This document shows, in pieces, positions 7,314-47,557 of a stretch of DNA of 64,000 nucleotides (positions are counted from its first letter, which is position 1; the number at the start of each line of letters is the position of its first letter). This DNA is from Actinoplanes derwentensis. GTDB taxonomy: Bacteria > Actinomycetota > Actinomycetes > Mycobacteriales > Micromonosporaceae. The notes under the pieces are model-generated. The model was given only the letters and a program-made list of their open reading frames with translations, searched no databases and was not told the DNA's origin. The translations under genes and the position numbers were made by a program. The stretch lies in assembly GCF_900104725.1 (NCBI RefSeq), contig NZ_LT629758.1, positions 9,820,001 through 9,884,000 on the forward strand, read 5' to 3'.

Positions 7314-7324
7314 TCCGGATCAGA

Positions 7325-7364
7325 ACAGGCCGGGCCGGTGGTTCACTCCACCGGCCCGGCCTGT
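7325..7364. terminator. Bidirectional terminator between pheT and tetR
   Basis: A perfect 17-bp inverted repeat (7325-7341 with 7348-7364, 6-nt loop TTCACT) sits exactly between the converging pheT and TetR genes. The right side is followed by CTCTGTTC rather than a clean T-run. Confidence 0.8.
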
Positions 7365-7370
7365 CTCTGT

Positions 7371-7922: not shown

Positions 7923-7936
7923 GGTTTCAGCTTATG

Positions 7937-8008
7937 CCAACGGGCGTTGGCCAACAAGTGTTGACCTGGCTTCGCGACGCCGCATATGGTTTTGCCAACA
8001 CCTGTTGG
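7937..8008. promoter_or_regulatory. Triple operator between tetR and monooxygenase
   Basis: Three copies of the same 6-2-6 dyad are visible. O1 is CCAACG-GG-CGTTGG (7937-7950), O2 is CCAACA-AG-TGTTGA (7951-7964) and O3 is CCAACA-CC-TGTTGG (7995-8008). O3 extends to perfect 10-nt arms (7991-8000 and 8003-8012). O1 and O2 abut with a 14-bp period. O1 lies just upstream of the tetR -10, O2 overlaps the monooxygenase -35 and O3 covers its likely start point. Confidence 0.8.
7961..7990 (+). promoter_or_regulatory. Promoter of the flavin monooxygenase gene
   Basis: TTGACC (7961-7966), an 18-nt spacer and TATGGT (7985-7990) form a good sigma70-type promoter. The predicted start near 7997 falls within operator O3. 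This makes the GTG at 8028, not the in-frame ATG at 7986, the plausible translation start. Confidence 0.65.
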
Positions 8009-8027
8009 CAAACGTGGGGAGGACGTC

Positions 8028-9410
8028 GTGCACACCACTGTCGCGATCATCGGGGCCGGTCCGACCGGTCTGCTGCTCGCCGGCGACCTGGCCCGGGCCG
8101 GGATCCCGGTCACCCTGTTCGAACGACGGGCGAACACGTCCAACCTGACCCGGGCGTTCGGCGTGCACGCCCGTACGCTCGAATTGCTCGACGCCCGGGC
8201 CCTCGCCGACCGCATCGTGGCCGGCGGCGCGAAAGTCGAACACCTGCGCCTCTTCGACCGCATCCGGCTGGACCTGTCCCGGCTGCCGTCCCGCTACCCG
8301 TTCCTGCTGATCACCCCGCAGTCGCGGGTGGAGGAAGCGCTCGAGGAGCGGGCCGTGGCGGCGGGCGCCCGGATCGAGCGCGGCGCCGCGCTGACCGGCC
8401 TGCGGCAGGACGACGAGCGGGCCACCCTGGAGTTCGGCGAGCAGACGGTCACCGCGGACTGGGTGGTCGGCGCCGACGGGGTGCACAGCACCGTCCGCGA
8501 TGCGCTCGGCCTGCCGTTCCCCGGAAAGGCCGTGCTCACCTCGATCATGCTGGCCGACGTCCGCCTGGCCACCCCGCCGGAGGACGTGCTGGCCGTCAAC
8601 GCGGTCGGTGACGCGTTCGCCATGGTCGCGCCGTTCGGTGACGGGTGGTACCGGATCTTCGCCTGGGACCGCCGGCACCAGGTCGGCGACGACGTTCCGG
8701 TGACGCTCGACGAGATGCGCGGGGTGACCCGCCGGGTGCACGGCACCGATTTCGGCATCACCGAGGCCCGTTGGCTGGCCCGGTTCCACAGCGACGAACG
8801 GCAGTCCCCGCGCTACCGGGTGGGCCGGATCCTGCTCGCCGGCGACGCCGCTCACGTGCACTCCCCGGCCGGCGGCCAGGGCATGAACACCGGTCTGCAG
8901 GACGCGGCGAACCTCTCCTGGAAACTGGTCGCCACCATCCAGGGCTGGGCGCCCGCCGGCCTGCTCGACACCTACGAGGCCGAGCGCCACCCGGTCGGCC
9001 GGCTGGTCCTGCGCAGCAGCGGCGCCCTGATCCGGATGGCGATGATCCACTCGGCTCCGGCCCGTGCCCTCCGCAACACCCTGGGCAACATGCTGCTCGG
9101 CCTTCCGCCGGTGGCCCGCCGCGCCACGGGTGTCGTCTCCGGCGTCGGCATCGGTTACCCCGGAGCACCGCGGGCCACCGACGTCGCGCTGGCCGAGGGC
9201 AGCCGCCTTTACCAGGCGCTTCGCGAGGGCCGGCACGTCCTTCTCACCGATCGGTCCGTGCCTGGTCACGCCGATCGCCTGCTCGTGGCGGTCCCGGCGA
9301 TTTCCGGCAGTGAGGCGGTCCTCGTCCGCCCGGACGGCTACGTGGCCTGGCGCGGTCCCGCCGCGGACGCTCCGGCCGCGGTCAGTCGCTTCCTCAGCCC
9401 TGCTACCTAG
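8028..9410 (+). CDS. Class A FAD-dependent monooxygenase (PheA/TfdB type)
   Basis: Predicted aromatic hydroxylase using FAD, NAD(P)H and O2; 460 residues. The three landmarks of the family are present: the dinucleotide fold VAIIGAGPTGLLLAGDLARA (residues 5-24), the DG motif VVGADGVHSTVRDAL, and the GD motif RILLAGDAAHVHSPAGGQGM followed by NTGLQDAANL. The C-terminal 100 residues are compatible with the thioredoxin-like tail of phenol hydroxylases. GTG 8028 is preceded by GGGGAGGA. Relatives act on phenols, polyketides and some antibiotics, so under an inducible TetR control it may be a detoxification or degradation enzyme; the substrate is not predictable. Its 3' end overlaps the convergent gene by 8 bp. 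Confidence 0.9.
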   Translation: MHTTVAIIGAGPTGLLLAGDLARAGIPVTLFERRANTSNLTRAFGVHARTLELLDARALADRIVAGGAKVEHLRLFDRIRLDLSRLPSRYPFLLITPQSRVEEALEERAVAAGARIERGAALTGLRQDDERATLEFGEQTVTADWVVGADGVHSTVRDALGLPFPGKAVLTSIMLADVRLATPPEDVLAVNAVGDAFAMVAPFGDGWYRIFAWDRRHQVGDDVPVTLDEMRGVTRRVHGTDFGITEARWLARFHSDERQSPRYRVGRILLAGDAAHVHSPAGGQGMNTGLQDAANLSWKLVATIQGWAPAGLLDTYEAERHPVGRLVLRSSGALIRMAMIHSAPARALRNTLGNMLLGLPPVARRATGVVSGVGIGYPGAPRATDVALAEGSRLYQALREGRHVLLTDRSVPGHADRLLVAVPAISGSEAVLVRPDGYVAWRGPAADAPAAVSRFLSPAT

Positions 9411-9699
9411 CGACACTTCTCCGCAGCAGCCCGCGGGCGTGCGGGCGCTCGGACGGATCCAGGCGGGTGCAACCGGAGTCGCGCACCCGCCAGCCACCGG
9501 CGGCCAGCGCGGCGTCGATGCCGGACCGTGCCTCGCCGACCCGGTCCGGCTCGGCCGCGAAGAGCACCCGCAGACGGATCTCGTCCCCGGCGGCAACAAC
9601 CGCGACGTGGTGTTGCGGGAGAGCATCGGCGAGCGTGGCTCCCGGATCGGTGCCGGGCTCGGGCACGAGCGTCGCCTGATGGGCGTAGACCTGCCGCAT
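9403..9699 (-). CDS. Small hypothetical protein downstream of DUF3616 gene
   Basis: A 98-residue protein with no family I recognise. It starts on the TGATG stop-start overlap with the upstream gene (stop 9701-9699, ATG 9699-9697), which supports real, coupled translation. The sequence is soluble-looking, without signal peptide or membrane segment. It has an alpha/beta pattern in the middle (EIRLRVLFAAEPDRVGEARS) and a basic C-terminus. Codon use matches neighbours. Confidence 0.6.
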   Translation of the reverse strand: MRQVYAHQATLVPEPGTDPGATLADALPQHHVAVVAAGDEIRLRVLFAAEPDRVGEARSGIDAALAAGGWRVRDSGCTRLDPSERPHARGLLRRSVAR

Positions 9700-10769
9700 C
9701 AGGGCAGTTCAAGCACATCGGCGATGACCGTGCCGTCCGTGCCGAGCCGGATCGGGGCCGGGCTGTCGTAGACGACGAGCACCCGGTCGGTGCCGAGCAG
9801 GCTCAGGCCCTCGGCGTGATCGTCACCCTCGCCATAGGTCAGTTCCAGCACCCGGCTGATCAGAACGTCGCGCACGATCGTCGGGACCTCGGCCGCGAAC
9901 GCACCGTGCCAGCGGTAGATCCGCACCGGCCCGTCCAGATCCATCGTCGGACCGGCCAGGATCAGCACGTCGTCGCCGATCGGGCAGAGGTCACGCACCC
10001 CCAGACCATCAAGATCAAGGACATGCTTGCGGTACGGGGACCCGTCCTCGAAACGGTGCAGCCGCAGCCGGGTGGGTTCGTCGTCGAGCACGTAGGGCCG
10101 CAACTCCAGCACGAACGCCCAACCGCGCAGCACCGGGCCGCGCAACCCGACGAAGACCCTGTCCCCGCGTACGGCGATGCCTTCGACGTCCAGGCCGTTG
10201 TCCTTGCCCGGAATCGCCAGGAACGGGGCCAGATGCTCGTCATCGCGCAGCAGCCGCCGCAGATCGTCGCGCCGGCTGAGGGCGGCGGCCCGGTGTGTCA
10301 TGCCGTCCGCGTGCAGCTCCCGGACCGGGGTGGGGATCCCGTCCACGTCGGCGATCGGCAGCCGCACCAGGATCTGCCGATTGTCCTGCCCCTCCACGCG
10401 GGCCAGCCGGCGCAGTGCCCGCGGGCCCTCGTGGCGGTCCTTGATCTGTTTGCGGCGCAGGCTGTGCGAACCGATCGCCCAGAGGAAGCGGCCGGTGCGG
10501 GCCAGGCCCTCCACGTCCGCCTCCTCGTCGGCGTCAGCGCCCGGCAGATCGACGAAATCGGCCAGCCGGAACCGTGCCTCCGCCCCGAACTCGGTGGGCC
10601 GCTCCGGATCGTCGGCGAGCAACCGCTCGACCGTCGCCGTCTCGTCGCCGGCGATCCAGAGGGCCCGCCCGTCGAGGCGGATGGCAGAGAGGTTCGTGTG
10701 GGTGGCCGTGGCCCGCGACTCGTCGGAGAACCGCAGCCGCACCGTGTAGTCGACCGTCATGGTCGACAT
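9699..10769 (-). CDS. DUF3616 domain-containing protein
   Basis: Protein of 356 residues. The pattern HTNLSAIRLDGRALWIAGDE, then ADVEGLARTGRFLWAIGSHS and further repeated strand segments ending in G/D turns, fits DUF3616, a beta-propeller-like family of unknown function. No signal peptide is evident. The ATG at 10769 (MSTMTVDYTV) was chosen; the ATG at 10760 is equally possible and neither has a strong ribosome binding site. It lies 40 nt downstream of a GNAT gene on the same strand and is probably co-transcribed with it. Confidence 0.75.
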   Translation of the reverse strand: MSTMTVDYTVRLRFSDESRATATHTNLSAIRLDGRALWIAGDETATVERLLADDPERPTEFGAEARFRLADFVDLPGADADEEADVEGLARTGRFLWAIGSHSLRRKQIKDRHEGPRALRRLARVEGQDNRQILVRLPIADVDGIPTPVRELHADGMTHRAAALSRRDDLRRLLRDDEHLAPFLAIPGKDNGLDVEGIAVRGDRVFVGLRGPVLRGWAFVLELRPYVLDDEPTRLRLHRFEDGSPYRKHVLDLDGLGVRDLCPIGDDVLILAGPTMDLDGPVRIYRWHGAFAAEVPTIVRDVLISRVLELTYGEGDDHAEGLSLLGTDRVLVVYDSPAPIRLGTDGTVIADVLELP

Positions 10770-10809
10770 CGTCGCACCGGCACGCACCTGAAATCGGTGG
10801 GTTCTTCGG

Positions 10810-11565
10810 TCAGCCTTGCGAGATGTACAGCCGGTACCCGGACGGCACGAACCCGACCCGCTCGTAGACCCGCCAGGAGTCGTCGCCGGACGCCTCCAGC
10901 CAGGCGAACTCCGCGCCGCCCTCGAAGAGCCGCCGGGTGACGCCCGCACTGATCGCCCCGCCGAGACCACGCCGCCGGAACTGCTCCCGCACCGCGATCC
11001 CGGCCACCTCGCTCAGGCCGTCGTTCGGTGGGCTCGACTGCCCGCCACCAGCCCAGACACCGTCAGCCGAGCGGGCGCCGAGGACCACTCCGCCGCGCTC
11101 CTGACTACGGCGCATCCGGGCCACGGCGGCCTCGGACGGATCGTCCGGGAACTCGCCGAAGGCCTCGTTCTGCGCGGAGACGATGGCGGCCCGGTCCCGG
11201 TCCGTCTCCGGTTCCACCAATTCCAGACCGGTGGGTACGGGGGGAGCGTTCAGCGTCGACGGGGAGCAGATCAGGTACTGGTTGCGCTCCTCGACGGTGA
11301 ATCCGGCACCGAGCAGCAGCCCTTCCAGCTCCGGGGAGCAACTGGTCACGTACTCCAGGCGGGGTTTGCGGCCCGCGCCGGCGAATGCCGTGACCAGGGC
11401 GGTGATGTCGGCTGCCGTGATCGGGACACCGGGCACGGGAGTGGCGTAGTTGATGTAGGGACTGTCGGTCTCCGGGTCGAACCCGGCCACGAACGGGCCG
11501 GTGTCGATGGCCTGCGGCCGGGTACGGAGGTTGGACACGACGGAGCGCTGAATGCGCAGATCCAT
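10810..11565 (-). CDS. GNAT-family N-acetyltransferase
   Basis: Predicted acetyl-CoA-dependent acetyltransferase of 251 residues. The C-terminal half holds the GNAT fold: motif A reads EVAGIAVREQFRRRGLGGAI (Q/RxxGxG/A pyrophosphate loop as RRRGLGG) and motif B reads WLEASGDDSWRVYERVGFVP. The N-terminal half (to about residue 105) also has a GNAT-like look, so it may be a tandem or degenerate double domain. The substrate is unknown. It is the first gene of a three-gene reverse cluster. Confidence 0.85.
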   Translation of the reverse strand: MDLRIQRSVVSNLRTRPQAIDTGPFVAGFDPETDSPYINYATPVPGVPITAADITALVTAFAGAGRKPRLEYVTSCSPELEGLLLGAGFTVEERNQYLICSPSTLNAPPVPTGLELVEPETDRDRAAIVSAQNEAFGEFPDDPSEAAVARMRRSQERGGVVLGARSADGVWAGGGQSSPPNDGLSEVAGIAVREQFRRRGLGGAISAGVTRRLFEGGAEFAWLEASGDDSWRVYERVGFVPSGYRLYISQG

Positions 11566-11922
11566 GATGAGTGAAGCCTTTTCGCCAGAGAAACGGATGC
11601 CTACGCGGAAGATTTCGCGGGGCCGCCTGCTGGGCGTGCGAGCGTCAGCGGCGGCCGAAGGGCCGGGCCGAGGGCATTGGCGTCACTCTTTCAAGAAGTC
11701 GGGACCGTGTGCTTTCACACGACCGCCCGCAAATCCTGCCACGGGCGGGTGTTCTCCCGCAAACATCGGCGCGGGCCGGCCGCCTGCACGGCCCGCACCG
11801 ATGTCCCTCACTCTGTCCCATCCCGATCGGGAAGTCCATGGACGTCGATGTGTTCCCCTTTTTGTCGGAGGGGGTCGTTAGGGTTCAGCCGACCGATCGA
11901 GCGATGCCTGGGAGAGTGAGCC
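11566..11922. promoter_or_regulatory. Intergenic region upstream of the DUF4132 operon
   Basis: No gene is supported in these 357 nt. They hold a stem ACCGCCCG/CGGGCGG (11722-11748). They also hold a stronger stem, ACATCGG-c-GCGGGCC (11763-11777) with GGCCCGC-a-CCGATGT (11790-11804), 14 bp with one internal mismatch. TAGGGT at 11879-11884 is a plausible -10 for the operon. GGGAGAG at 11911-11917 is the ribosome binding site. Promoter confidence is low because no -35 is clear. Confidence 0.45.
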
Positions 11923-14900
11923 GTGACATTTGTCGTGCCGGCCGGGTGGAAACGGTTCCTGCTGCCGCGTCGCGGTGACGCCCCGGCGTTCCCACAGGTC
12001 AAGCTCGCCGAGGTCACCGCCGCCGACGAGCTGCTGACCGCCTTCGACGGCGACGTCCGGGGCGCGCTCGGCCATCGGCTCACCCCCGGCGACCTGTCCG
12101 CTGCCGGGCACGCCCATCTCTCCGGCGAGGCCCCCTCCCCGCTCGGCGCGGCGGTCGTGGCCGCGGCGGTGGCCAACGTGCTGCAGTGGCCCCGGCAGGA
12201 GGAGCTGCTCGCCTTCACCGAGCTGTGGCGCTCCCGGCACGGGCTGCCCTTCGCCGCGGCGGCCGTCGCCGAGTTGACCACGATCTTCCACGGGAGTCAG
12301 CGGGTCGACCGCCCGATCACCCGGGCCGTGCCGGACCTGGACGCCGACGGCTTCGCCACCCGGGTTCTGCTGCCGATGGCCTTCCGGCTGCGGCGCGCCG
12401 TCGCCGCTGTCCCCGCGGGGGAGTATGCACAGGTCGTCGCCGCTCTGGCCGCGGTGCGCGGGCCGTCGCTGCTGCAGCGGGTGACCGTCTCGGTGCTGAC
12501 CCCCGACGAGACCGGGTGGGCCACCGACATCACCGGCGCGCTGCTGGCGGTCTCCGGACGGGACGGGCTGAAGGCCCTGATGCTGACCGTCGTCACCGAC
12601 GAGGCGGCGGCCGCCCGGCTGGCCGCCCCACTCAGCCCGTGGCAGGTGCTGAACTGGAACGAGGTCGTCTACACCTTCACCGCCACGCTCGGCCCGGCCG
12701 CCGCCCCGGCGCTGGCCCAGTGGCTCGACGCCACCACGACCGCCGCGCAGCTGCGGCGCAGACTGCTCACCCTGCTGACCACGATCGGTGGCGACGCGGC
12801 CTTCACCGCCCTGCTCGTCCGGCTCGACCAGCCGGACGTGGCCGCCGCGATCGCCGATTCGGCCGGTCGCTCCCCGGCCCGGGCCCTGCGGCTGCTGGCT
12901 GAGGCGCCGGTCGGCGACCGGCTGCTGCGCAACCACCTGGCCAACCATCGTGACCTCGCCGACGAGGTCCGGCCCCTGCTCACCGACGAGGCCGCCGGCC
13001 GGTTCGACGCCGCCCACGCCGTGCTGACCGCGGTCGGCGGCGACGTGGCCGGCCCCGCCGACCTGCCGCCGATCCTGGTCAGCCCGCCCTGGACCGACCC
13101 GGTCCCGCGCAAGCCCCTGGTCGTCACCGGCCTGATCGGCGACGACGCGCCCCAGGTGGAGTGGGCGCCGGGTGAGCGGGAGAGCTGGGGCGACGGATCC
13201 TGGCCCGCCCGGCACGGTGGCTCCCGCGACTGGGCGACCATCGCCGCCGACTTCGGCACCAGCCGGGCCAACCCGTGGCACGAGACGTTCTTCTTTCTGC
13301 AGGGCCCCGACGAGGTGACCCTGTCCCGGATCACCGGCTGGCGCCCGGAGTGGACCCACTATCTGGACGACTGGGGTCCCGAGTTGCTCGCCCGCTACCA
13401 GGCCGACGCCGTCCCGGCCCTGGTCGCGGCGGCGAAACGCACCCCGGTCGCGGGCGCGCCGGTGCTGCTCCCGGCCGCCACCGCCGAGGTGGCGCTGCTG
13501 ATGGCCGGATGGCTCGCCAAGTCCCGCGCGATCCGCACGACAGCCCTGGCCTGGTTCGCCCGCCACCCGGCGTTCGCCGCCCGCGCCCTGATCCCGATCG
13601 CCGTGGGCAAGGTGGGCAAGACCCGGACCGAGGCCGAGGCCGCGCTGCGTGTCCTGCCCCGCGACGAGGTCCTGACCGCCGCCGCCGGTCACGGCCCGGA
13701 GGCCGTCGCGGCGGCCGAGGAGATCCTGGCCGTCGATCCGGTGACGATCCTGCCCAAGGTCATCCCCGCGGTGCCCGACTGGGCGAACCCGGCGGTGCTG
13801 CCCCCGGTCCGGCTCACCGGCGGTCGCGGCACGCTGCCCGCCGACGCCGTCCGGCACCTGCTGACCATGCTCGCCCTGTCCCGTCTCGACGGCGTCTACC
13901 CGGGCCTGCCCCTGGTCGCCGCCGAGTGCGAGCCGGCCGACCTGGCCGAGTTCGCCTGGGTCCTGTTCACCGAGTGGCGCGAGGCCGGCCATCCGGCCAA
14001 GGCGAGCTGGCCGCTCGACGCCCTCGGCCTGCTCGGCGACGACGAGACGGTCCGGCGGCTGGCCCCGGTGATCCGCGCCTGGCCCGGCGAGGGCGGCCAC
14101 ACCCGCGCGGTCACCGGGCTCGACGTGCTCGCCACGATCGGCACCGACGTGGCCCTGATGTACCTCAACGGCATCGCGCAGAAGGTCAAGTTCAAAGGCC
14201 TGAAGGAGCGTGCCGAGGAGAAGATCGCCGAGCTCGCGGCCGGGCTCGGGCTCACCAGCGAGGAACTGGCCGACCGCCTCGTCCCCGACCTGGGCCTCGG
14301 CGAGACCGGCAGCCTCACCCTGGACTACGGGCGCCGCACCTTCACCGTCGGTTTCGACGAGCAGCTCAAGCCCTACGTCACCGATGCCGGCGGTAAAAAG
14401 CTCAAAGCCCTTCCCAAGCCTGGTACGCAGGACGACCCGGTCCTCGCCCCGGAGGCCTACCAGCGGTTCACCGCCCTGAAGAAGGACGTTCGCGCCATCG
14501 CCACCGACCAGGTGCGCCGACTGGAACGGGCGATGGTCGACCAGCGCCGGTGGACCGGCGCCGGCTTCCGGCAGTTCCTCGCCGGGCATCCGCTGCTACG
14601 GCACCTGGTCCGGCGGCTCGTCTGGGTGCGCTTCGACGAGGCCGGGCGCCCGGCCGGTGGGCTGCGCCTGGCCGAGGACGGCAGCCTCGCCGACCGCACC
14701 GACGAGACCGTCACCCTGCCCGACGACGCCCTGATCGGGATCGGTCACCCACTGCACCTCGGCGACGACCTGGCCACCTGGGTCGAGTTGTTCGCCGACT
14801 ACGAGATCCTCCAGCCGTTCGACCAGCTCGGCCGGGGCACCGAACCGCTCACCCCGGAGCGGGCCGCCGGATTCACCGGCCGCACCGTGCCCAGCACCAC

Positions 14901-15192
14901 ACTGCTCGGGTTGGAACGGCGCGGATGGCGGCGCGGCAGCCCGCAGGACGGCGGCGTGCAGGGCTGGTTCGAACGCGACGTTCCCGGCGCCCGGCACCTG
15001 GTGGTGGCGATCGACCCCGGTATCCCGGTCGGCGCCGTCGACGTCCTCGGTGACCAGACGATCGAGGCGATCTTCGTGGAGCCGGCCGCCGCGTACCACT
15101 GGTCCCGCCGGGACCAGGACGACCACATCCGCGAACTCGATCCGATCACCGCCGCCGAGGCGCTGCGCGAACTATCCGAGGTGCTCCCGTGA
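11923..15192 (+). CDS. DUF4132 domain-containing protein (YehI/MolR-like)
   Basis: Large cytoplasmic protein of 1089 residues and unknown biochemistry. The C-terminal region (about residues 800-1000) contains the DUF4132 core: FDEQLKPYVTDAGGKKLKAL, a helix with RLERAMVDQRRWTGAGFRQF, and HPLLRHLVRRLVWVRFDEAG. The first ~750 residues are Ala/Leu-rich helical repeats resembling HEAT/ARM scaffolds. There is no signal peptide. The GTG start at 11923 has GGGAGAG upstream. Its stop overlaps the MoxR start (GTGA), making it the first gene of a five-gene coupled operon. E. coli YehI/MolR carries the same domain and neighbours, so a scaffold role for the AAA+/VWA pair is my inference. Confidence 0.88.
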   Translation: MTFVVPAGWKRFLLPRRGDAPAFPQVKLAEVTAADELLTAFDGDVRGALGHRLTPGDLSAAGHAHLSGEAPSPLGAAVVAAAVANVLQWPRQEELLAFTELWRSRHGLPFAAAAVAELTTIFHGSQRVDRPITRAVPDLDADGFATRVLLPMAFRLRRAVAAVPAGEYAQVVAALAAVRGPSLLQRVTVSVLTPDETGWATDITGALLAVSGRDGLKALMLTVVTDEAAAARLAAPLSPWQVLNWNEVVYTFTATLGPAAAPALAQWLDATTTAAQLRRRLLTLLTTIGGDAAFTALLVRLDQPDVAAAIADSAGRSPARALRLLAEAPVGDRLLRNHLANHRDLADEVRPLLTDEAAGRFDAAHAVLTAVGGDVAGPADLPPILVSPPWTDPVPRKPLVVTGLIGDDAPQVEWAPGERESWGDGSWPARHGGSRDWATIAADFGTSRANPWHETFFFLQGPDEVTLSRITGWRPEWTHYLDDWGPELLARYQADAVPALVAAAKRTPVAGAPVLLPAATAEVALLMAGWLAKSRAIRTTALAWFARHPAFAARALIPIAVGKVGKTRTEAEAALRVLPRDEVLTAAAGHGPEAVAAAEEILAVDPVTILPKVIPAVPDWANPAVLPPVRLTGGRGTLPADAVRHLLTMLALSRLDGVYPGLPLVAAECEPADLAEFAWVLFTEWREAGHPAKASWPLDALGLLGDDETVRRLAPVIRAWPGEGGHTRAVTGLDVLATIGTDVALMYLNGIAQKVKFKGLKERAEEKIAELAAGLGLTSEELADRLVPDLGLGETGSLTLDYGRRTFTVGFDEQLKPYVTDAGGKKLKALPKPGTQDDPVLAPEAYQRFTALKKDVRAIATDQVRRLERAMVDQRRWTGAGFRQFLAGHPLLRHLVRRLVWVRFDEAGRPAGGLRLAEDGSLADRTDETVTLPDDALIGIGHPLHLGDDLATWVELFADYEILQPFDQLGRGTEPLTPERAAGFTGRTVPSTTLLGLERRGWRRGSPQDGGVQGWFERDVPGARHLVVAIDPGIPVGAVDVLGDQTIEAIFVEPAAAYHWSRRDQDDHIRELDPITAAEALRELSEVLP

Positions 15193-16400
15193 CCCGTTCC
15201 ACCCCGCCGAACTCCGCTTCGTCCTTCGTTTCGCCTTCCGGGGCCTCCGCTGCTTCGCCTTCCGGGGCCTCCGCTGCTTCGCCTTCCGCGTCGTCCTCCG
15301 CTTCGTCCTCCGCGCCGGAGCACGTTCAGCGGCCGCCGGCCGAGGTTCGCTACGCCGACGAGCTGGCTCGTCTCCGCGCCGCCGACGACGCGCCCACCCC
15401 GCCCGGCTGGGCGCTCAGCCTCCGGGCCGCCCGTGCGTTCGTCGTCGGCGACGAGAACCTCGGCGTCACCCGCAAGTTCGTCGGCGACCCGTCACTCATC
15501 GACCGGGCCCTGGTCAGCCTCGCCACCAGTCGCGGTCTGCTGCTCGTCGGCGAGCCCGGCACCGCCAAGTCGCTGCTGTCCGAACTGCTCGCGGCGGCCG
15601 TCAGCGGCGACTCGACCCTGACCATCCAGGGCGGCGCGGCCACCACCGAGGACCAGATCAAATACTCGTGGAACTACGCCCTCCTCGTCGCCGAGGGCCC
15701 GACCGAGCGGTCCCTGGTCCCGGCACCGCTGCTGCGCGGCATGGCCCACGGCAAGGTGGTCCGCTTCGAGGAGATCACCCGTTGCCCCCTCGAAGTGCAG
15801 GACTGCCTTCTCTCCCCGCTGTCCGACCGGGTCCTCGCGGTGCCCGAGCTGCCCGGTGCCGCGAGCATGGTGTTCGCCCGGGAAGGCTTCAACATCATCG
15901 CCACCGCGAACACCCGCGACCGGGGTGTCAACGACATGAGCTCGGCGCTGAAACGGCGCTTCAACTTCGAGACGGTCTTCCCGATCGGCGACTTCGACAC
16001 CGAACTGGCTCTGGTCGAAACCGAGGCCGGCGCCCTGCTGCGGCGCTCCGGCGTCACCGCCCCGCCCCGTCGTGACGTGCTCGAAGTGCTGGTCACCGCG
16101 TTCCGGGAACTGCGCACCGGGCGTACCGGGCGCGGCGACGAGATGGAGAGACTGTCGTCGGTGATGAGCACCGCCGAGGCGGTGTCGGTCGCCCACGCCG
16201 TCGGGCTGCGCGGCTGGTTCCTCAACGGCACCGCCGGCACCACCACCGACCTGGTCTCCTGCCTGGCCGGCACCGCCGCCAAGGACAGCCCGGAAGACCT
16301 CGCGAAACTGCGCCGCTACCTGGAGCAGCACACCTCGTGGCGGTCCGGACCGCAATGGCGTGAGCTGCGGGACGCGCGCCGGGAACTGCCCGGCGGATGA
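15189..16400 (+). CDS. MoxR-type AAA+ ATPase (YehL-like)
   Basis: Predicted AAA+ ATPase of 403 residues. After a Ser/Ala/Pro-rich N-terminal extension (residues 1-45) come Walker A GEPGTAKS (121-128), Walker B VVRFEE (190-195), sensor 1 with Asn in IIATANTRD (around 241) and an arginine-finger-type KRRF. MoxR proteins act with VWA-domain partners as chaperone-like machines, as in RavA-ViaA, CbbQ-CbbO and NorQ-NorD. The VWA partner is two genes downstream. The GTG start overlaps the upstream TGA by 4 nt, and the stop overlaps the next ATG (ATGA). The N-terminus is encoded by a 24-bp tandem repeat. Confidence 0.93.
   Translation: MTRSTPPNSASSFVSPSGASAASPSGASAASPSASSSASSSAPEHVQRPPAEVRYADELARLRAADDAPTPPGWALSLRAARAFVVGDENLGVTRKFVGDPSLIDRALVSLATSRGLLLVGEPGTAKSLLSELLAAAVSGDSTLTIQGGAATTEDQIKYSWNYALLVAEGPTERSLVPAPLLRGMAHGKVVRFEEITRCPLEVQDCLLSPLSDRVLAVPELPGAASMVFAREGFNIIATANTRDRGVNDMSSALKRRFNFETVFPIGDFDTELALVETEAGALLRRSGVTAPPRRDVLEVLVTAFRELRTGRTGRGDEMERLSSVMSTAEAVSVAHAVGLRGWFLNGTAGTTTDLVSCLAGTAAKDSPEDLAKLRRYLEQHTSWRSGPQWRELRDARRELPGG
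15230..15288 (+). repeat. 24-bp tandem repeat in the MoxR gene
   Basis: Two identical 24-nt units (15230-15253 and 15254-15277) and an 11-nt partial third encode the octapeptide period SPSGASAA in the N-terminal tail of the AAA+ protein. The repeats preserve the reading frame. Confidence 0.9.
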
Positions 16401-19045
16401 ACCTCACCGTCATCGGGGTCCGGCACCACAGCCCCGCCTGCGCCCGCCTGGTCGGCACCACGATCGCCGCGCTCCAGCCGGCGTTCGTGCTGATCGAGGG
16501 GCCCGCCGACATGAACGCGCGGATCGGTGAACTCCTGCTCGGCCACGACCTGCCGGTGGCGGTCTTCACCAGCTACCTCGACGAACAGCGGCGGCACGGC
16601 TCGTGGGCGCCGTTCTGCGAGTACTCACCCGAGTGGGAGGCCCTGCGCGCAGGCCACGCGAGCGGGGCGGAACTCCGGTTCATCGACCTGCCGGCCTGGC
16701 ACGAGGCGTTCGCCGACCGCGACAACCGCTATGCCGACGCCGAACTGCGCTACGCCGAAGCCGTCGACCGGCTGTGCACCGAGTTCGGCGTCGACAACAG
16801 CGACGCCCTCTGGGACCACGTCGTCGAGATGGCGCCGGCCGACGGTCTGGCCGACCGCCTGGCCGCCTACTTCGAGCTGATCCGCGGCGACACGGCGGCC
16901 GGCCCCTCCGACACGGCCCGCGAGGCCTACATGGCCGCCTGGCTCCGGGCCGCGTGTGCCGAGGCCGGTGACCGCCCGGTCGTCGCGGTCGTCGGCGGTT
17001 TCCACCGCCCCGCCCTCCTCCGCCTGGCCACCACACCGGCTGACCCGCCGATCCCCACATCCGCGCCCGCGCCCATCCCCGCGCCCACCCCCACCCAGAC
17101 TCCGGCCTTCTCGGCCGTGGCGCCTGCCGCCGCGTCGTCATCCCCGCCTGCTTCTGAATCTCCCGGCGCCGTGGCGGGTTTCTCCCCGCTCACATCCCGG
17201 TCTTCCGGGGCCGGCTCGGCGGCGGGCGGGGCCGGGTGGCCGGAGATTCCCGCTCCGCCGGACGGGGCTACCGCCGGGAGCTATCTGGTGCCGTATTCGT
17301 TCCGGCGGCTGGACGCGTTCGGGGGATACCAGTCGGGGATGCCGTCACCCGAGTACTACCAGCGGCTCTGGGAGAGCGGCCCGGAGGAAGCGGCCCGATA
17401 CCTGGTGACCGCCGTCGCGGGGCGGTTGCGGAAACGCGGTCAGCCTGTCTCCACGGCCGACCTGATCGCCGCCCGTGCCGGGGCCGAAGCGCTCGCACTG
17501 CTGCGCGGGCACGACCACCCGGCCCGAGTCGACGTGCTCGACGGGCTGGCGTCCGCGCTGGTCAGCGAAGCTTTGGAAGTGCCACTGCCGTGGGCGGTGC
17601 GCGGGACCGTCAGCGCCGGGCAGCATCCGGCCGTCGTCGAGATGACCGCCGCGCTCAGCGGGGAACGGGTCGGGCGGCTGCATCCGGACACCCCGCTGCC
17701 GCCGCTCGTCCACGCGGCCACCGCCGAACTGGAGCGGTACCGCCTCGACGAACCCGGCGAACACACCGCCGACCTCACCGAGGCGCACGGCCGTACCGTC
17801 AGCCGGGTCCTGCACCGCCTGCGGGTCCTCGGGGTGCCGGGCTTCCGGCGTGACGCCGGGCCGGCCACCGGCATCGACCCGGTGCTGCGGGAACGATGGA
17901 CCACCACCGCGCACGAGCACCGGCTCGCCGCACTCATCGAGGCCGGCGGCTACGGCCCGACACTGGAGGCCGCCACCGCCGCCCTGATCACTCAGCGCAT
18001 CGCCGGATCGTCCGGAGACCTGGCCCGGCTCGCCGACGCGCTCTTCGACGCGGCGCTCAGCGGGGTCACCGACCTCGGCACCGATGTCCCCGCCCTACTC
18101 GAACGCGGTGTCGCCGCCGGGAGCGACCTGGCCGAACTGGGCCGGGTCCTGGCGATCACCCTGGCTCTGTGGCGGCACGACCGGCTGCTCGGTACCGCGG
18201 GCAGCGACACCCTCGGTACCGTGATCGCCGCAGCCACCCGCCGGATCCTCTGGCTGTCCGAGGGCTGGCACGCGGCCGGAGCACCCGCCGACCGGACCCG
18301 GATCGCCGCCGTCGTGGCGGTCCGCGACGCGGTGTTGCACGCCGGGGCGGTGGGCGTCGACCGTACCGCCGCCGTTGAATCAGCCGGCCGGATCGCCGCC
18401 GACCGCGCCGCACCGCCGGACCTTCGCGGCGCCTTCTACGGCCTCGGCCGAACCCTCCTCGCCGCCACCGCACCACCCGCCGGCCTTGCGCCTGCCGTTC
18501 CCGCTGGCCTTGAGCCCGTCAGCCTTGAGCCCGCTGGCCTCGTGATCCCGGCGGACTCGGTGGCCGCTGACGATCCGCCCGTCGCGCCCGGTGGTTCGCC
18601 GCCCGGTCCAGGCCGTGGCGGGGGCTCCTCGGGCTCCGGTGGGAGCGGGGAGCCTTTTCCGGCGCCGGATCATGCGGTTCGGGGAGCGTTCGCGGCGGGG
18701 ACCGCGGGGGACTGGCTGGCGGGGCTCTTCGGGGTGGCCCGGGAGCCGGTGCTCGCGCCGGACGGGATCCTCGACCTGCTCGACGATCTGATCAGCGGGT
18801 TCGCCGCTGAGGACTTCCTGGTGGCGTTACCGGCGCTGCGGCAGGCGTTCGAATATTTTCCGCCGCGGGAGCGGGCCACCATCGGTGACCGGTTGCTGGC
18901 CCGGCGCGGGCTCGCCGGATCGGGGCGTGACCTGCTGCGGGCCACCGGCGATCCGCGGCTGGTGGCGGCCGGGATGGCGCTGGACGAGACCATCGAGCAG
19001 CGACTCGTGCGAGCGGGGCTGATCAGCTTGAGGGAGACGGCATGA
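16397..19045 (+). CDS. DUF5682 family protein (YehM-like)
   Basis: Protein of 882 residues, third in the operon. The N-terminus VIGVRHHSPACARLV and the motif VLIEGPADMNARI are typical of DUF5682. Their GxxHHSP and IEGP elements recall the TraB/TIKI-like metal-dependent fold, which is only a weak resemblance. Two low-complexity inserts, Pro/Ala/Thr-rich at about residues 215-290 and Gly/Pro/Ser-rich at about 693-755, separate three compact regions. No signal peptide or membrane helix was seen. It overlaps both neighbours by 4 nt. Its function is unknown; the context ties it to the AAA+/VWA machine. Confidence 0.85.
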   Translation: MNLTVIGVRHHSPACARLVGTTIAALQPAFVLIEGPADMNARIGELLLGHDLPVAVFTSYLDEQRRHGSWAPFCEYSPEWEALRAGHASGAELRFIDLPAWHEAFADRDNRYADAELRYAEAVDRLCTEFGVDNSDALWDHVVEMAPADGLADRLAAYFELIRGDTAAGPSDTAREAYMAAWLRAACAEAGDRPVVAVVGGFHRPALLRLATTPADPPIPTSAPAPIPAPTPTQTPAFSAVAPAAASSSPPASESPGAVAGFSPLTSRSSGAGSAAGGAGWPEIPAPPDGATAGSYLVPYSFRRLDAFGGYQSGMPSPEYYQRLWESGPEEAARYLVTAVAGRLRKRGQPVSTADLIAARAGAEALALLRGHDHPARVDVLDGLASALVSEALEVPLPWAVRGTVSAGQHPAVVEMTAALSGERVGRLHPDTPLPPLVHAATAELERYRLDEPGEHTADLTEAHGRTVSRVLHRLRVLGVPGFRRDAGPATGIDPVLRERWTTTAHEHRLAALIEAGGYGPTLEAATAALITQRIAGSSGDLARLADALFDAALSGVTDLGTDVPALLERGVAAGSDLAELGRVLAITLALWRHDRLLGTAGSDTLGTVIAAATRRILWLSEGWHAAGAPADRTRIAAVVAVRDAVLHAGAVGVDRTAAVESAGRIAADRAAPPDLRGAFYGLGRTLLAATAPPAGLAPAVPAGLEPVSLEPAGLVIPADSVAADDPPVAPGGSPPGPGRGGGSSGSGGSGEPFPAPDHAVRGAFAAGTAGDWLAGLFGVAREPVLAPDGILDLLDDLISGFAAEDFLVALPALRQAFEYFPPRERATIGDRLLARRGLAGSGRDLLRATGDPRLVAAGMALDETIEQRLVRAGLISLRETA

Positions 19046-20160
19046 CCGACGCCGGACTGGAACGATGGCGGCTGGTCCTGGGCGAACCCGCCGGTGGCAG
19101 CCTCGGGGAACCCGGCGGTGACGCAGCCGCCCGGGACGCGGCCCTGGACTGGCTCTACGGCCGCGACGGCGAACTGGACCGGCGTGACATCCGGCGGCGC
19201 CAGGGCGGTTCCGGCCCGTCCCAGATCACCACCGTGGACTGGCTCGACGACATCACCCGGCTGTTCCCGAAGGAGACCGTCGAACGTCTGCAGCGCGACG
19301 CCGTCGAACGGTACGAGATCGACGACATCGTCACCGACCCGAAGGTCCTCGAACGGATCGAGCCGAACCCGTCCCTGCTGCGTGCTGTGCTCCGCACCAA
19401 GCATCTGATGAACCCCGAGGTGCTGCGGCTGGCCCGGCGGATCGTCGAAGCGGTCGTCCGCGATCTGATGGAACGGCTCGCCACCGAGGTCCGGCAGAGT
19501 TTCTCCGGCGCCCGGTCCCGGCGGTCCAGCCGGTTCAAACAGGCCCGCGACTTCGACGCCCGGCGCACGATCCGGGCGAACCTCGGCAACTACCGGCCGG
19601 ACGAAGGGCGGATCTATGTCGAGACGCCGTACTTCACGTCCCGGACCCGGCGCCAGCTCACCCAGTGGCAGGTGATCCTGCTCGTCGACCAGTCCGGGTC
19701 GATGCTCGACTCGGTGATCCACTCGGCGGTCACGGCGGCCTGCCTGTGGGGGCTGCCCGGGGTGCGTACCCATCTGATCGCCTTCGACACCGACGTCGTC
19801 GACCTCACCTCCGACGTCAGCGACCCTGTCGAACTGTTGATGAAGACCCAGCTCGGCGGGGGTACGGACATCGGGCGCGCGGTCCGGTTCGCGGCTCAGC
19901 TCGTCGAGCAGCCACGACGAGCGATCGTGGCGGTGATCAGTGACTTCTACGAGGGCGGATCGGAGGCGACCCTGGTGCGGGCGGTGCGGGAACTCGTCGA
20001 GCAGGGCACGATCGTTCTCGGTCTGGCGGCTCTCGACGAACAGGCGGATCCGGCGTACGACCGGGCCTGTGCCCAGCGACTCGCCGACGTCGGCGCCTGG
20101 GTCGGCGCGATGACTCCGGGTGAACTGGCCGCGTTCGTCGCCGAGCGGGTCGGCCGATGA
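19042..20160 (+). CDS. VWA domain protein (YehP-like), AAA+ partner
   Basis: 372 residues. The N-terminal helical part (about 1-200) contains the conserved WLDDITRLFPKE and a basic stretch. The C-terminal von Willebrand factor A domain begins near residue 208 (WQVILLVDQSGSML) and has an intact metal-ion-dependent adhesion site: D216-x-S218-x-S220, T275 in GGGTD and D301 in VISDF. VWA partners of MoxR ATPases bind clients through this metal site. It overlaps the upstream and downstream genes by 4 nt each, consistent with fixed stoichiometry. Confidence 0.93.
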   Translation: MTDAGLERWRLVLGEPAGGSLGEPGGDAAARDAALDWLYGRDGELDRRDIRRRQGGSGPSQITTVDWLDDITRLFPKETVERLQRDAVERYEIDDIVTDPKVLERIEPNPSLLRAVLRTKHLMNPEVLRLARRIVEAVVRDLMERLATEVRQSFSGARSRRSSRFKQARDFDARRTIRANLGNYRPDEGRIYVETPYFTSRTRRQLTQWQVILLVDQSGSMLDSVIHSAVTAACLWGLPGVRTHLIAFDTDVVDLTSDVSDPVELLMKTQLGGGTDIGRAVRFAAQLVEQPRRAIVAVISDFYEGGSEATLVRAVRELVEQGTIVLGLAALDEQADPAYDRACAQRLADVGAWVGAMTPGELAAFVAERVGR

Positions 20161-22478
20161 GCCTGCCGGTACGCGCCGACCTGCTCGCCCTCGACGACGC
20201 CGCTCTCGCCGCACTCGCCAACCGGGGCCTGGTGAAACGGGCCGCCCGGGAGGTCGAGCGCGAATCCCCGCTGCTGTCCGCCCGGCAGACCACGATCGTG
20301 GCCGGCTGGCCCGACGGCATTCACACCGAACTCCCGGAAGGCGGCCTGGACCGGGGCACCTGCTCGTGCGGCGCGACCGGGGTGTGCCGCCACCTGATCG
20401 GCCTGGTCTTCGCCTACCAGCACGTCTCCACCGCCCCACCATCCGCCGCGTCATCGTCGGCCGCCACGCCGTCCACCGTGTCGCAGTCCGCCGTCGCGGT
20501 CCCGACGGCCGAGCCGTCCGTTGCCGCGTCGGCCGCCATCCAACTGGCCGCCACCACGTCGGACGCCGGTGAGTCGTCGCCTGCCGGGTCGCCCGCCGCG
20601 GAGAAGCCGCCTGCCAGGGTGTCCGTGTCGTGGTCGCCCGGAGCGTTCAGCGACGCTGATCTGGTCGGCCGGATCGGGGCACGGCTCGTCGACGCGGCCC
20701 GCCGGGCCGAACGTGGCGGATACACCGCCCGGATCCGGCGCGGACCGGTTCCGGTGGCCGAACTACCCGCGGCGACGGTCCGGTTCCTGGTGCCGAACGA
20801 TCTCGGATACGTGCACACCGACGCCAAAGCCGGTGTCCGAGACGATGTGATCGCCCTGGCCGTCTGGGCGTTCCGGGCCGCCGACGAGCAGCAGCCGGGC
20901 GCCGACGACTGTGTGGTCGACGTCGGCGGGTCACGAACCGGGGCCGCCACCTCCGATTCCGGGCTCGAACAGGTGGTGGAGTTCGCCGCCGAGGTACTGC
21001 GGGCCGGTGCCGTACACGCGGGTGCCGGGCTGGCCGCGATGGCCGCTGGGCAGATCACCGCCCTGGAGAAGAGCAGCCTGCGGTGGCCGCTCGACGCCGT
21101 CACCGAACTCGCCGGTCAGCTCGCCGCCTACCGGGATCGCGGCGCTCGTTACTCCCCGGACGTACTCGCCGATCTGATCGCCGAGTTGTTCGCCCGGCAT
21201 CGTGCCGTCATCGCGGGCGGCGGCACGGCCGTGCGTTCCCGGGTGCTCGGTACGGAGGAGGCGGCCGAGACCCCATTGCGGAGAGTACGACTGGACGGCC
21301 TCGGTGCCCGAGTCACCGCGGTCGACGACGAACGCCGGGTCGAGATCTTCCACGGCCAGGCAGCCAGTGGTGTGGTCCTGGTGTCACACCGGCAGTGGAC
21401 CGCCACCGACGACGGCCCGGCCCTGTCGAGACGCCGCCTGGCCGGTGCCACGATCGCCGCGCTGGCCGCCGGAACCCTGGTGACCGAATCCGCGATCCGC
21501 AGCGCCAGCCGTTCGGTGCGCCTGACCGCCAGCCGCGTCGCCAAGTCCACGGTGACCGCCTCGACCGGCGCCTGGGAACACCTGCCATCCGCCTTGCGGG
21601 TGCATGACTATGCGAAGTTCGCCGCCGAACTGGACGCCATGCCACCCCGCCCGGTCCGCGCCCGGGTGCGAGCCGACCTGGTCCGCGTCCTGGAGATCGC
21701 CGAGGTCGGCGAGAGCCACTACGCGCCCGGAGCCCAGCGCCTGACGGTGCAGATCCGCGACAGCCTGGGCAACACGGCCACGGTGGTGGCGACGCACTCG
21801 GCGGTGGCTCCGGCCCGCCTGGACGCGGTGGCCGCCGCCCTGAACGGCACCCGGGGCCGCCCCCGCTACGTGGCCGGCAGCATTCACCGCAGTGGCGGCG
21901 GCTTGGTGATCGACCCTTACGCGATCGCCGCCGACGGCCCACCGGTGGTCCCCGACCTGGCTTCCCCTGCCGACTTCCCCACCTTGACGGTCACGCACCC
22001 CGCCGGGCCACCAGCCGCCTCATCGGCGCTGCCGGCTGCGGATGACGGGTTGTCGAGCGGGGATGTCCTTCCGGTGAGTGCTCCGCATCCAGCCGCAGCT
22101 TCGGACATGGCGTTGCCGGTTGTGGAAGGCGAAGGACGATTGGGCGGGAGTGGTGCTCCGGGGGGTGAAGTCTGTGGTGGGGTGGAACCCGGAGCCGCTT
22201 CGGTCGACGACGGGACGACGGATGTGCTGGCGGCTGTGGTGGCGGCCGCCCGGGAAGTCTTGGCCGAGGCCGCGCACAGTGGGCTCGCCCATCTGCCGCC
22301 GGCTTATGCCGAGCGGCTGGGGACCGCCCGTGGCTCACTGGCCGGGGCCGGCCTGCATCGGGTGGCTTCGGCGTTCGGCGAACTGGCCGCCCGGATCAGC
22401 CCCGACCCGGGTATCGAGACCGCCCAGGCCTGGGTCGACGCCTACCTGCGGGTGAGTCTCGCAGCCGATCTCCTGTGA
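20157..22478 (+). CDS. SWIM zinc-finger protein (YehQ-like)
   Basis: 773 residues. A SWIM zinc finger with pattern CxC-x5-CxH is visible at C69, C71, C77 and H79 (GTCSCGATGVCRHLIG). SWIM fingers bind DNA or proteins. Two Ala/Ser/Pro-rich inserts (about residues 91-160 and 616-686) flank a large central region with no fold I recognise (RRVRLDGLGARVTAVDDERR and so on). It is the last gene of the coupled operon and overlaps the VWA stop by 4 nt. E. coli YehQ has the same domain in the same gene neighbourhood. Confidence 0.88.
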   Translation: MSLPVRADLLALDDAALAALANRGLVKRAAREVERESPLLSARQTTIVAGWPDGIHTELPEGGLDRGTCSCGATGVCRHLIGLVFAYQHVSTAPPSAASSSAATPSTVSQSAVAVPTAEPSVAASAAIQLAATTSDAGESSPAGSPAAEKPPARVSVSWSPGAFSDADLVGRIGARLVDAARRAERGGYTARIRRGPVPVAELPAATVRFLVPNDLGYVHTDAKAGVRDDVIALAVWAFRAADEQQPGADDCVVDVGGSRTGAATSDSGLEQVVEFAAEVLRAGAVHAGAGLAAMAAGQITALEKSSLRWPLDAVTELAGQLAAYRDRGARYSPDVLADLIAELFARHRAVIAGGGTAVRSRVLGTEEAAETPLRRVRLDGLGARVTAVDDERRVEIFHGQAASGVVLVSHRQWTATDDGPALSRRRLAGATIAALAAGTLVTESAIRSASRSVRLTASRVAKSTVTASTGAWEHLPSALRVHDYAKFAAELDAMPPRPVRARVRADLVRVLEIAEVGESHYAPGAQRLTVQIRDSLGNTATVVATHSAVAPARLDAVAAALNGTRGRPRYVAGSIHRSGGGLVIDPYAIAADGPPVVPDLASPADFPTLTVTHPAGPPAASSALPAADDGLSSGDVLPVSAPHPAAASDMALPVVEGEGRLGGSGAPGGEVCGGVEPGAASVDDGTTDVLAAVVAAAREVLAEAAHSGLAHLPPAYAERLGTARGSLAGAGLHRVASAFGELAARISPDPGIETAQAWVDAYLRVSLAADLL

Positions 22479-22488
22479 CGGAGGGATC

Positions 22489-22968
22489 ATGCCCGACGGG
22501 TTCGTGATCCGGGACGCGGTGCCGGGTGACCGGGATGCGGTGCTGTCCTTCTGGCCGCATCCCGACCGCTTCGACCGGCGGCTGGCCTCGTCCGTATCGG
22601 GTGAGGAATCGCTGCTCGTGGCCGTTCACGGCGACCTGACCGCCGGGATTGTCGGCATTCGGTGGGACGGCGGGTGTGATGACGCGGCGCGACCGTTGCT
22701 GTACGCCCTGGAGATCCGGGCGGAGCAGCGTGGGCGCGGCGGTGGGACCGCGTTGATCAGGCATGTCGCCGGTCTGGTGGCGGATCGGGGGTTCGCCGAG
22801 CTCACCCTGGAGGTCGAGGTGGCCAACGCCGGGGCGATCAGGCTCTATCACCGTCTCGGCTTCGTGACGGCCGGCCCGCACCGGCACGTCTGGCATTCCG
22901 GCAAGTCCTGCGGGATCGCCGACGTCCTGATCATGCACGGCGGGGCCGGCGACCTGGCCCGCCGGTGA
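22489..22968 (+). CDS. GNAT-family N-acetyltransferase
   Basis: 159 residues with a complete small GNAT fold. Motif A is ALEIRAEQRGRGGGTALIRH (residues about 71-90, acetyl-CoA loop QRGRGGG). Motif B is EVANAGAIRLYHRLGFVTAG. ATG 22489 follows GGAGGG with normal spacing and lies 10 nt after the SWIM gene, so it may share that transcript. The substrate is unknown. Confidence 0.88.
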   Translation: MPDGFVIRDAVPGDRDAVLSFWPHPDRFDRRLASSVSGEESLLVAVHGDLTAGIVGIRWDGGCDDAARPLLYALEIRAEQRGRGGGTALIRHVAGLVADRGFAELTLEVEVANAGAIRLYHRLGFVTAGPHRHVWHSGKSCGIADVLIMHGGAGDLARR

Positions 22969-22983
22969 GTCCCGACTGGCGGG

Positions 22984-23023
22984 CCGTCACTGACGGCCAC
23001 CACTGACAAGGCATCAGTGACGG
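22984..23023. terminator. Inverted repeat between convergent genes
   Basis: A perfect 10-bp dyad (CCGTCACTGA at 22984-22993 with TCAGTGACGG at 23014-23023) has a smaller nested hairpin (GGCCGTC-ACT-GACGGCC at 22982-22998). There is no T-run. Its position between the convergent GNAT and YdcF-like genes supports a terminator role. Confidence 0.55.
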
Positions 23024-23033
23024 GGCGCTGTGG

Positions 23034-23876
23034 TCAGCTGAGGCTGACGGCCTGGTCGACGCTGGTTTCGTACCGGCCCAGGAAGATCGGGTCGCGGGCG
23101 GTCAGGACATCAGCGGCGGCTTTCACGGCGGCTCCGTACTCGCGGACCTCCCCGCGTACCCACATCTGTTTGAAGACCCGGACAGAGGAGTCGCCCACGC
23201 CGGTGGCTTCGATGCCCTGTTCGCGGCAGAGGGTCACGGCTCGGGGCAGGTGGAAGTCCTGAGTCACGACGATGGCCTCGCGTACGCCGAAGATCTTGTT
23301 GGCTCGGGAGCACGAGTCGTAGGTGTCGAAGCCGGCGTGGTCGAGGGCCACCCGGTCGGCGGGGACCCCGTTGGCCACCAGCCAGTTCTGCATGGCGCCG
23401 GGCTCGTCGTAGGCCCAGCGGCCGTGGTCGCCGGAGACCAGGATCGCCTTCACCTTTCCGGCTGCCAGTAGTTGGCGGGCGATCTCCAGGCGCGCGGCGA
23501 GGAAGGCCGACGGCTGGCCGTCCGCACCGACCTGAGCGCCGAGGACCAGGGCGACAGGGGCGGCGGGAACGGAGGCGGCGTCATAGATGTGACCGTCGGC
23601 GGCCGAACGTATCCACTGGGAACAGCCGAGGACGACAGCCACCGCGACGGCCATGCCCAGCGCGCCCACCGTGATCAGGCGGCGCAGGCGCCGGGCGCTG
23701 AAGAACGCGGCGATCCGGGTGAGGAGTGCGGGGAGGCGAGGCGCGACGCGGGAGAAGCGCGCGGGGAGGTGAACCGCGACCCGGCTGAAGCGCGCGGCGG
23801 CGCGGGCGGAAAGGGTGGTGAGGGCGGGTCGCTTCGGCACCGGGCCGAGGATGCCAGACCTGGTCAATGGCACCAT
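23034..23876 (-). CDS. YdcF/SanA-like DUF218 protein
   Basis: About 280 residues. A membrane helix (LITVGALGMAVAVAVVLGC) is followed by the DUF218 domain: VALVLGAQVGADGQPSAFLA, ILVSGDHG, then TQDFHLPRAVTLCREQGI. SanA and YdcF relatives are envelope proteins of poorly known role. Before the helix is an arginine-rich region with a short repeat (ARFSRVA twice). The start is uncertain: ATG 23876 and 23885 and GTG 23840 are all possible, none with a clear ribosome binding site. The divergent GNAT gene begins within a few bases, so the true start may be internal. Confidence 0.75.
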   Translation of the reverse strand: MVPLTRSGILGPVPKRPALTTLSARAAARFSRVAVHLPARFSRVAPRLPALLTRIAAFFSARRLRRLITVGALGMAVAVAVVLGCSQWIRSAADGHIYDAASVPAAPVALVLGAQVGADGQPSAFLAARLEIARQLLAAGKVKAILVSGDHGRWAYDEPGAMQNWLVANGVPADRVALDHAGFDTYDSCSRANKIFGVREAIVVTQDFHLPRAVTLCREQGIEATGVGDSSVRVFKQMWVRGEVREYGAAVKAAADVLTARDPIFLGRYETSVDQAVSLS

Positions 23877-27136: not shown

Positions 27137-27239
27137 TTCATCTTGGGTATGAGGCGAATTCGACGGCTTGCGGGTAGGGTCGTCGAGGAAAGGTACTCAT
27201 TGGAGTCTATCTATCGCTCTCAGTAATCAGAGGGAGAAC

Positions 27240-47442: not shown

Positions 47443-47557
47443 CGACAAGAGTGATACACGTTGATTCTTCGATGCAGTGGTCCCGGTGTCGTCCACGCCG
47501 GGGCAGCGCAAAATCAATGACAATCGATCCGATACCACCGAATCGGAAGGGTGCGCC

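Follow-up and report, generated by a model that had tools for sequence, protein, structure and literature searches.

A conserved MoxR-VWA gene set in Actinoplanes derwentensis with a probable Tiki/TraB-like hydrolase domain in its DUF5682 protein

The locus considered here is a run of five plus-strand open reading frames (ORFs) at 11923-22478 of a 64,000-nucleotide stretch of the Actinoplanes derwentensis genome (positions 9820001-9884000 of the 10.65-Mb contig NZ_LT629758.1; hereafter the window), which encode a DUF4132 protein, a MoxR AAA+ ATPase, a DUF5682 protein, a CoxE-type VWA protein and a SWIM-motif protein. The question it raises is what these five proteins do together. The gene set was found to be real and conserved. 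Since Escherichia coli already has such an operon, the new points are a probable hydrolase identity for DUF5682, the modular architecture of the systems and a lead towards a damage response. It is proposed, with a probability of roughly 45%, that the operon encodes an ATP-driven MoxR-VWA protein-remodelling complex with a built-in hydrolase, which may be a peptidase.

The five genes and their conserved linkage

An earlier note on this DNA had claimed five genes joined by four 4-nucleotide stop-start overlaps, and both were confirmed at their coordinates. Gene A (11923-15192, GTG start, 1089 residues) encodes the DUF4132 protein and is followed on the same strand by gene B (15189-16400, GTG start, 403 residues) for the MoxR-type ATPase, gene C (16397-19045, 882 residues) for the DUF5682 protein, gene D (19042-20160, 372 residues) for the VWA protein and gene E (20157-22478, 773 residues) for the SWIM-motif protein. 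The overlaps, GTGA or ATGA in sequence, occupy 15189-15192, 16397-16400, 19042-19045 and 20157-20160. Pfam matches were obtained for the products of genes A (DUF4132, 174 bits), B (AAA_5, 121 bits), C (DUF5682, 316 bits) and D (VWA_CoxE, 190 bits). The gene E protein gave no Pfam match at an E value of 0.01; the SWIM motif CxCxnCxH is present at residue 69 as CSCGATGVCRH, and the E. coli homologue YehQ matches SWIM PF04434. The intact Walker A motif and metal site that the note had ascribed to the AAA+ and VWA proteins are legible in the translations as GEPGTAKS and, at residue 216, as the metal-ion-dependent adhesion site (MIDAS) DQSGS, respectively.

The equivalence of this domain set to the E. 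coli yeh genes was borne out by BLASTP, as each of the five proteins matched its Yeh counterpart and the five adjacent homologues (YehI, YehL, YehM, YehP and YehQ for genes A to E) stand in identical order. Identity was 63% over 357 residues for the AAA+ protein and YehL, 58% for the VWA protein and YehP, 37-43% in two main segments for the DUF5682 protein and YehM, 35% (C-terminal 600 residues) for the DUF4132 protein and YehI, and 24% (E 2.8e-33) for the SWIM protein and YehQ. In E. coli K-12, yehI, yehK, yehL, yehM, yehP and yehQ all lie on one strand. The E. coli set differs from that of the window in its additional small gene yehK, in not having the 4-nucleotide overlap at every junction, and in the WGR-domain gene and broken DUF4132-like gene (yehF and yehH; L009 4475-8270) that stand ahead of yehI. 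MoxR proteins have been divided into seven subfamilies, of which YehL is one (PMC3893208). Judged by sequence, gene B would be a YehL-subfamily MoxR AAA+ ATPase, and a VWA partner gene adjoins the operon's DUF5682 gene on its far side. In the open literature searched, no functional study of the yeh genes was found, and DUF5682 and DUF5691 were not mentioned.

Linkage of the genes was assessed in two surveys. In the first, genome contigs were scanned with an AAA+ alignment and the best 80 loci of at least 593 stretches were retained, so that the sample leans to close relatives. DUF5682 adjoined the AAA+ gene in all 80 loci, and all five families were present in 71 of them, or in 61 of the 64 where both flanks suffice; the exceptions among these 64 were L041, L117 and L118. 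In-frame NTGA stop-start overlaps were common but not universal, occurring at 43/76 A/B, 17/80 B/C, 57/75 C/D and 59/73 D/E junctions. The second survey was a Pfam DUF5682 search of 149 Actinomycetota and 117 Myxococcota genomes, of which 10 and 34, respectively, contained the family. Neighbourhoods were taken from all 14 actinobacterial places besides that of the window and from 20 of the 38 myxobacterial places, and AAA+ and VWA genes adjoined DUF5682 in 34/34. The co-occurrence of the five families is therefore more than chance, and homologues of the AAA+, DUF5682 and VWA proteins do not usually occur singly, which supports the earlier claim that the genes form one set. The closest source-named relatives of the gene C product are Actinoplanes DUF5682 proteins. 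System copies were also found in 30 plasmid records, and the three of these that were read with their annotation (Deinococcus, Iodobacter and Sinorhizobium) carry AAA+, DUF5682, VWA and SWIM genes together with DUF4132 or DUF5691.

The 34 neighbourhoods of the second survey were sorted into five architectures, in a numbering of our own. Type I (7/34; L036, L037, L169, L170, L173 and L174, with L168 lacking DUF4132) has the order DUF4132-AAA-DUF5682-VWA-SWIM seen in the window and in E. coli. Type II (14/34; L026-L032, L034 and L156-L161) combines SWIM and DUF5691 with AAA-DUF5682-VWA; the SWIM-DUF5691 pair sits on the opposite strand at L026-L028, and DUF5691 scores just 37-50 bits at L030-L032 and L161. 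Type III (3/34; L033, L035 and L175) has a DUF5682-VWA fusion, and type IV (2/34; L038 and L025) reads VWA-AAA-DUF5682. Type V (8/34) reads AAA-DUF5682-VWA, with a SWIM-motif ORF downstream in six (L162-L167) and none in L171 and L172. A SWIM homologue or motif was present in 30/34 neighbourhoods, mostly as the motif alone in types III and V, and neither was found at L025, L038, L171 or L172. L025 (G000:C1:9492000-9511900, about 6529-11753, plus strand) is a divergent second set in the A. derwentensis genome itself, preceded by two ORFs of 186 and 455 residues without Pfam matches. On a Sinorhizobium conjugative plasmid (L178 5878-16268) the order is AAA-DUF5682-DUF4132-VWA-SWIM, with DUF4132 relocated within the set. 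On an Iodobacter fluviatilis mobilizable plasmid the yeh-type set is complete and has two DUF4132 genes, and genes for a type I modification subunit and a PDDEXK nuclease lie just 3' of it (L177 13083-15731).

DUF4132 was the most variable component. Long copies numbered 0, 1, 2, 3 and 4 in 5, 43, 16, 15 and 1 of the 80 loci, respectively, some of the zeros being contig ends. At L041 (Actinoplanes rectilineatus), which occupies the same site with pheT and a GNAT gene upstream, genes B, C, D and E are retained and no DUF4132 match was found upstream of 10001 (best E 0.22); this state represents either natural loss of the module or the ancestral condition. The A. derwentensis genome has eight DUF4132 genes, and for seven of these no AAA+, DUF5682, VWA or SWIM homologue was found in the 19.5 kb around each. 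In other systems DUF5691 stands in the place of DUF4132. Best-segment identity to L039 was 97% for B, 95% for D, 91% for C, 87% for E and 82% for A, the values for C and E being flattered by partial segments, and the same ranking recurred for L040, L042 and L044. From the copy numbers, the absence at L041, the stand-alone genes and the order of identities, it was concluded that B, C and D make up an invariant core that E often accompanies, and that A is an exchangeable, fast-evolving module. The proposal that DUF4132 is a scaffold is consistent with the predicted fold of the gene A product, a helical solenoid to about residue 790 followed by an alpha/beta part with PF13569; it is weakened by the dispensability of DUF4132 (DUF5691 swaps, absence at L041, seven of eight genes standing apart). 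The fold matches were generic helical-repeat proteins covering mainly residues 64-784, and a sequence relative of DUF4132 was not found in the PDB.

The N-terminal domain of DUF5682

The predicted structure of the gene C product comprises a putative Tiki/TraB-like domain at residues about 1-214 and a mainly helical remainder, with low-confidence linkers at 219-278 and 696-750. A Foldseek search gave Tiki/TraB-type matches for residues 1-214. In an alignment of 36 proteins, His10 (16424-16426), Glu34 (16496-16498) and Arg175 (16919-16921) were kept in 36/36 and His203 (17003-17005) in 35/36 with one alignment gap. This His-Glu-Arg-His set is conserved over all five architectures and agrees with the published active sites of the Tiki superfamily. 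Taken with the fold matches and with weak Pfam matches to ChaN and TraB, it suggests that the N-terminal domain is probably a hydrolase of the Tiki/TraB/ChaN superfamily with these four as candidate catalytic residues.

Several observations weigh against this assignment. The Foldseek E values were not significant (best TraB-like 0.06), and the Pfam matches were weak, with ChaN found in 5/28 pieces (best E 0.0097) and TraB in 4/28 (best E 0.013). Profile-profile comparison with TraB/GumN by hhalign was negative (probabilities 0.1, 0.1 and 1.3), and no sequence relative of gene C was found in the PDB. Furthermore, the Tiki fold alone is no proof of hydrolysis, since haem binding is reported for ChaN, a member of this fold group. 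DUF5682 resembles the Tiki/TraB/ChaN/Ere superfamily in the His-Glu-Arg-His set and probably in the fold of residues 1-214. It differs in that its cytosolic-looking domain is fused to an extended helical region and linked with MoxR-VWA, and in the lack of a significant profile-profile match to TraB/GumN. The earlier description of DUF5682 as the effector thus acquires a plausible basis in this domain and its conserved candidate residues, while the effector role itself is something we infer.

A putative remodelling complex and its alternatives

The proposed complex would work as follows. Target recognition would fall to the SWIM protein together with the DUF4132 solenoid, the VWA protein would grip a segment of it at the MIDAS metal site, and the AAA+ protein, presumed to form a ring, would reshape or pull it. 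The Tiki/TraB-like domain of DUF5682 would then cut the target, most likely at a peptide bond, by means of His10, Glu34, Arg175 and His203.

The alternative that survives best, although it was judged somewhat unlikely, is a maturation chaperone. On this view a client complex would be activated or assembled by the AAA+-VWA pair, DUF5682 would be a subunit of Tiki fold that binds a ligand or cofactor, and DUF4132 or DUF5691 would be the client or its adaptor. The VWA protein is of the CoxE type and is paired with an AAA+ partner as in CoxD-CoxE, NorQ-NorD and RavA-ViaA, characterised MoxR proteins are described as chaperone-like (PMC3893208, PMC7159879), and the haem binding reported for ChaN would suit a cofactor-binding subunit. 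The likeness to these pairs has limits, as YehL is classed as a separate MoxR subfamily (PMC3893208) and the window operon adds DUF5682, SWIM and solenoid components. The retention over five architectures of a residue set matching the hydrolytic Tiki members also argues against a chaperone. Moreover, no constant client gene adjoins the operon, as judged by a cluster count with simple gene calls over the 80 loci and the window; among the top 25 neighbour ORF clusters, the large ones were on the minus strand and were taken for antisense readings of core genes, and the small ones spanned 3-8 loci.

The suggestion that such genes form a conflict system fared worse. Here the operon would serve in conflict or phage defence as one of the MoxR-vWA ternary systems, in which DUF5682 would be the effector and DUF4132 and SWIM the variable sensors. 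Its organisation is indeed like that of the ternary systems, with a MoxR AAA+, a VWA and a third component per operon (PMC7159879); DUF4132 is the fastest component to diverge and its copy number varies; and some copies are plasmid-borne, one of them beside restriction-modification genes. The third component of the window operon is, however, DUF5682 and not VMAP, iSTAND, FtsH or a beta-propeller (PMC7159879), and Pfam found DUF5682 and DUF4132 and none of those classes among the window proteins. The main text of that source contains none of the words YehL, DUF4132 and TraB. The bpMoxR profile scored gene B below its cut-off, at 22 of 27 bits. Run on seven proteins, PADLOC returned no more than two marginal matches (REase_II 12 bits, AbiEi 14.6 bits; E about 0.009), and none of three viral-contig stretches that matched the search patterns encodes a relative. 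Of 5426 E. coli genomes, 5284 had a yehM match, with 5289 of 5291 places chromosomal. The three Actinoplanes loci that were compared all retain the upstream GNAT gene, and two of them also retain pheT. With marginal PADLOC matches, no confirmed viral-contig locus, one phage-labelled record and near-ubiquity in E. coli, this explanation was deemed improbable. The phage-labelled record, MT835988.1, is a 14-kb unannotated faecal-sample entry whose DUF5682-like stretch (11331-12755; 29% identity, half of the query) could be bacterial DNA.

That the genes are merely co-inherited and their proteins act separately would fit the stand-alone DUF4132 genes (7/8 in A. derwentensis) and is most improbable, as AAA+, DUF5682 and VWA are linked in members of four phyla, in varied gene orders and with fusions.

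DNA-damage control, neighbouring genes and implications

A role in stress is suggested by reports on DNA damage. In E. coli, molR maps at 47.3 min (PMC4245954), a position from which we infer that it is the yehF-yehI stretch; it is listed as LexA-regulated (PMC11039860) and reported to give slow growth when combined with a lepA deletion. A link of molR to molybdate is also described in the literature. A search of 24 kb of E. coli sequence for the complete LexA consensus, allowing as many as 3 mismatches, and for CTGTN8ACAG gave no match. The sequence CTGGATAAAATTACAG, which we take to be the published molR box, ends 9 bases ahead of yehF. As CTGN10CAG is in any case more frequent in these 24 kb than expected (16 occurrences, 5.9 expected), this match is by itself no proof.

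In Deinococcus, drA0165-drA0166 belong to the DdrO regulon, and the DRA0166 protein, which has DUF4132, rises after mitomycin C in the wild type and not in an irrE mutant (PMC8533742). In Deinococcus taeanensis, a two-mismatch match to the DdrO motif ends 20 bases before the first operon gene (one record); the motif was not enriched on the 430-kb plasmid, where it matched 7 times and its reversed pattern 6 times. At L176 4717-4780 of this plasmid, TTGACA-N16-TACAAT (hexamers by eye) is immediately followed by a DdrO-motif-like palindrome ahead of the SWIM-DUF5691-AAA-DUF5682-VWA operon. No convincing box was found in Iodobacter, nor in Sinorhizobium, where one GTTCN7GTTC lies about 690 bases 5' of the AAA+ gene. 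The window has no actinobacterial LexA-type box near 11923, and in 50 related actinobacterial loci such a box occurred in 0/50 at up to 1 mismatch and 3/50 at 2, like the random control. Given the single unenriched DdrO-like match and the boxless actinobacterial operons, DNA-damage control is regarded as a lead for some lineages, with hints in E. coli and Deinococcus, and not for actinobacteria.

Upstream of the operon lie a minus-strand GNAT gene and phenylalanyl-tRNA synthetase genes. A second GNAT gene (22489-22968) starts 10 nucleotides past gene E and was considered as a sixth member; it was rejected because it is present at L039 and absent at L040 and L041. A sigma-70 scan of 11500-23100, weakly informative for an actinobacterium, gave no promoter-like site. 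Elsewhere in the window, a glutamate-cysteine-ligase family 2 gene has a 4-nucleotide overlap with a DinB_2/FGE-sulfatase gene (27168-29722), a pair which we take to be ergothioneine-biosynthesis-like, and 47477-52978 encodes an 1833-residue pullulanase-like protein preceded by an alpha-amylase domain.

A broader hypothesis is that DUF5682 systems are widespread, unrecognised ATP-dependent proteases. In these, a MoxR ring with the VWA protein as adaptor would pass substrates to a Tiki/TraB-type peptidase, and SWIM and swappable solenoids (DUF4132, DUF5691) would give specificity. In some lineages DNA damage would switch the machine on, acting by way of regulators that are not related to each other, LexA in E. 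coli and DdrO in Deinococcus. At this breadth the hypothesis is doubtful.

For the family as a whole, genes that have been known for a long time, and whose Yeh relatives are uncharacterised, gain a testable activity. With DUF5682 as a probable Tiki-type hydrolase and four candidate catalytic residues, mutagenesis and an activity test are feasible in E. coli. If the hydrolase is a peptidase, the complex would be a MoxR-driven protease, and such MoxR-driven ATP-dependent proteolysis would, to our knowledge, be an arrangement known from no described system.
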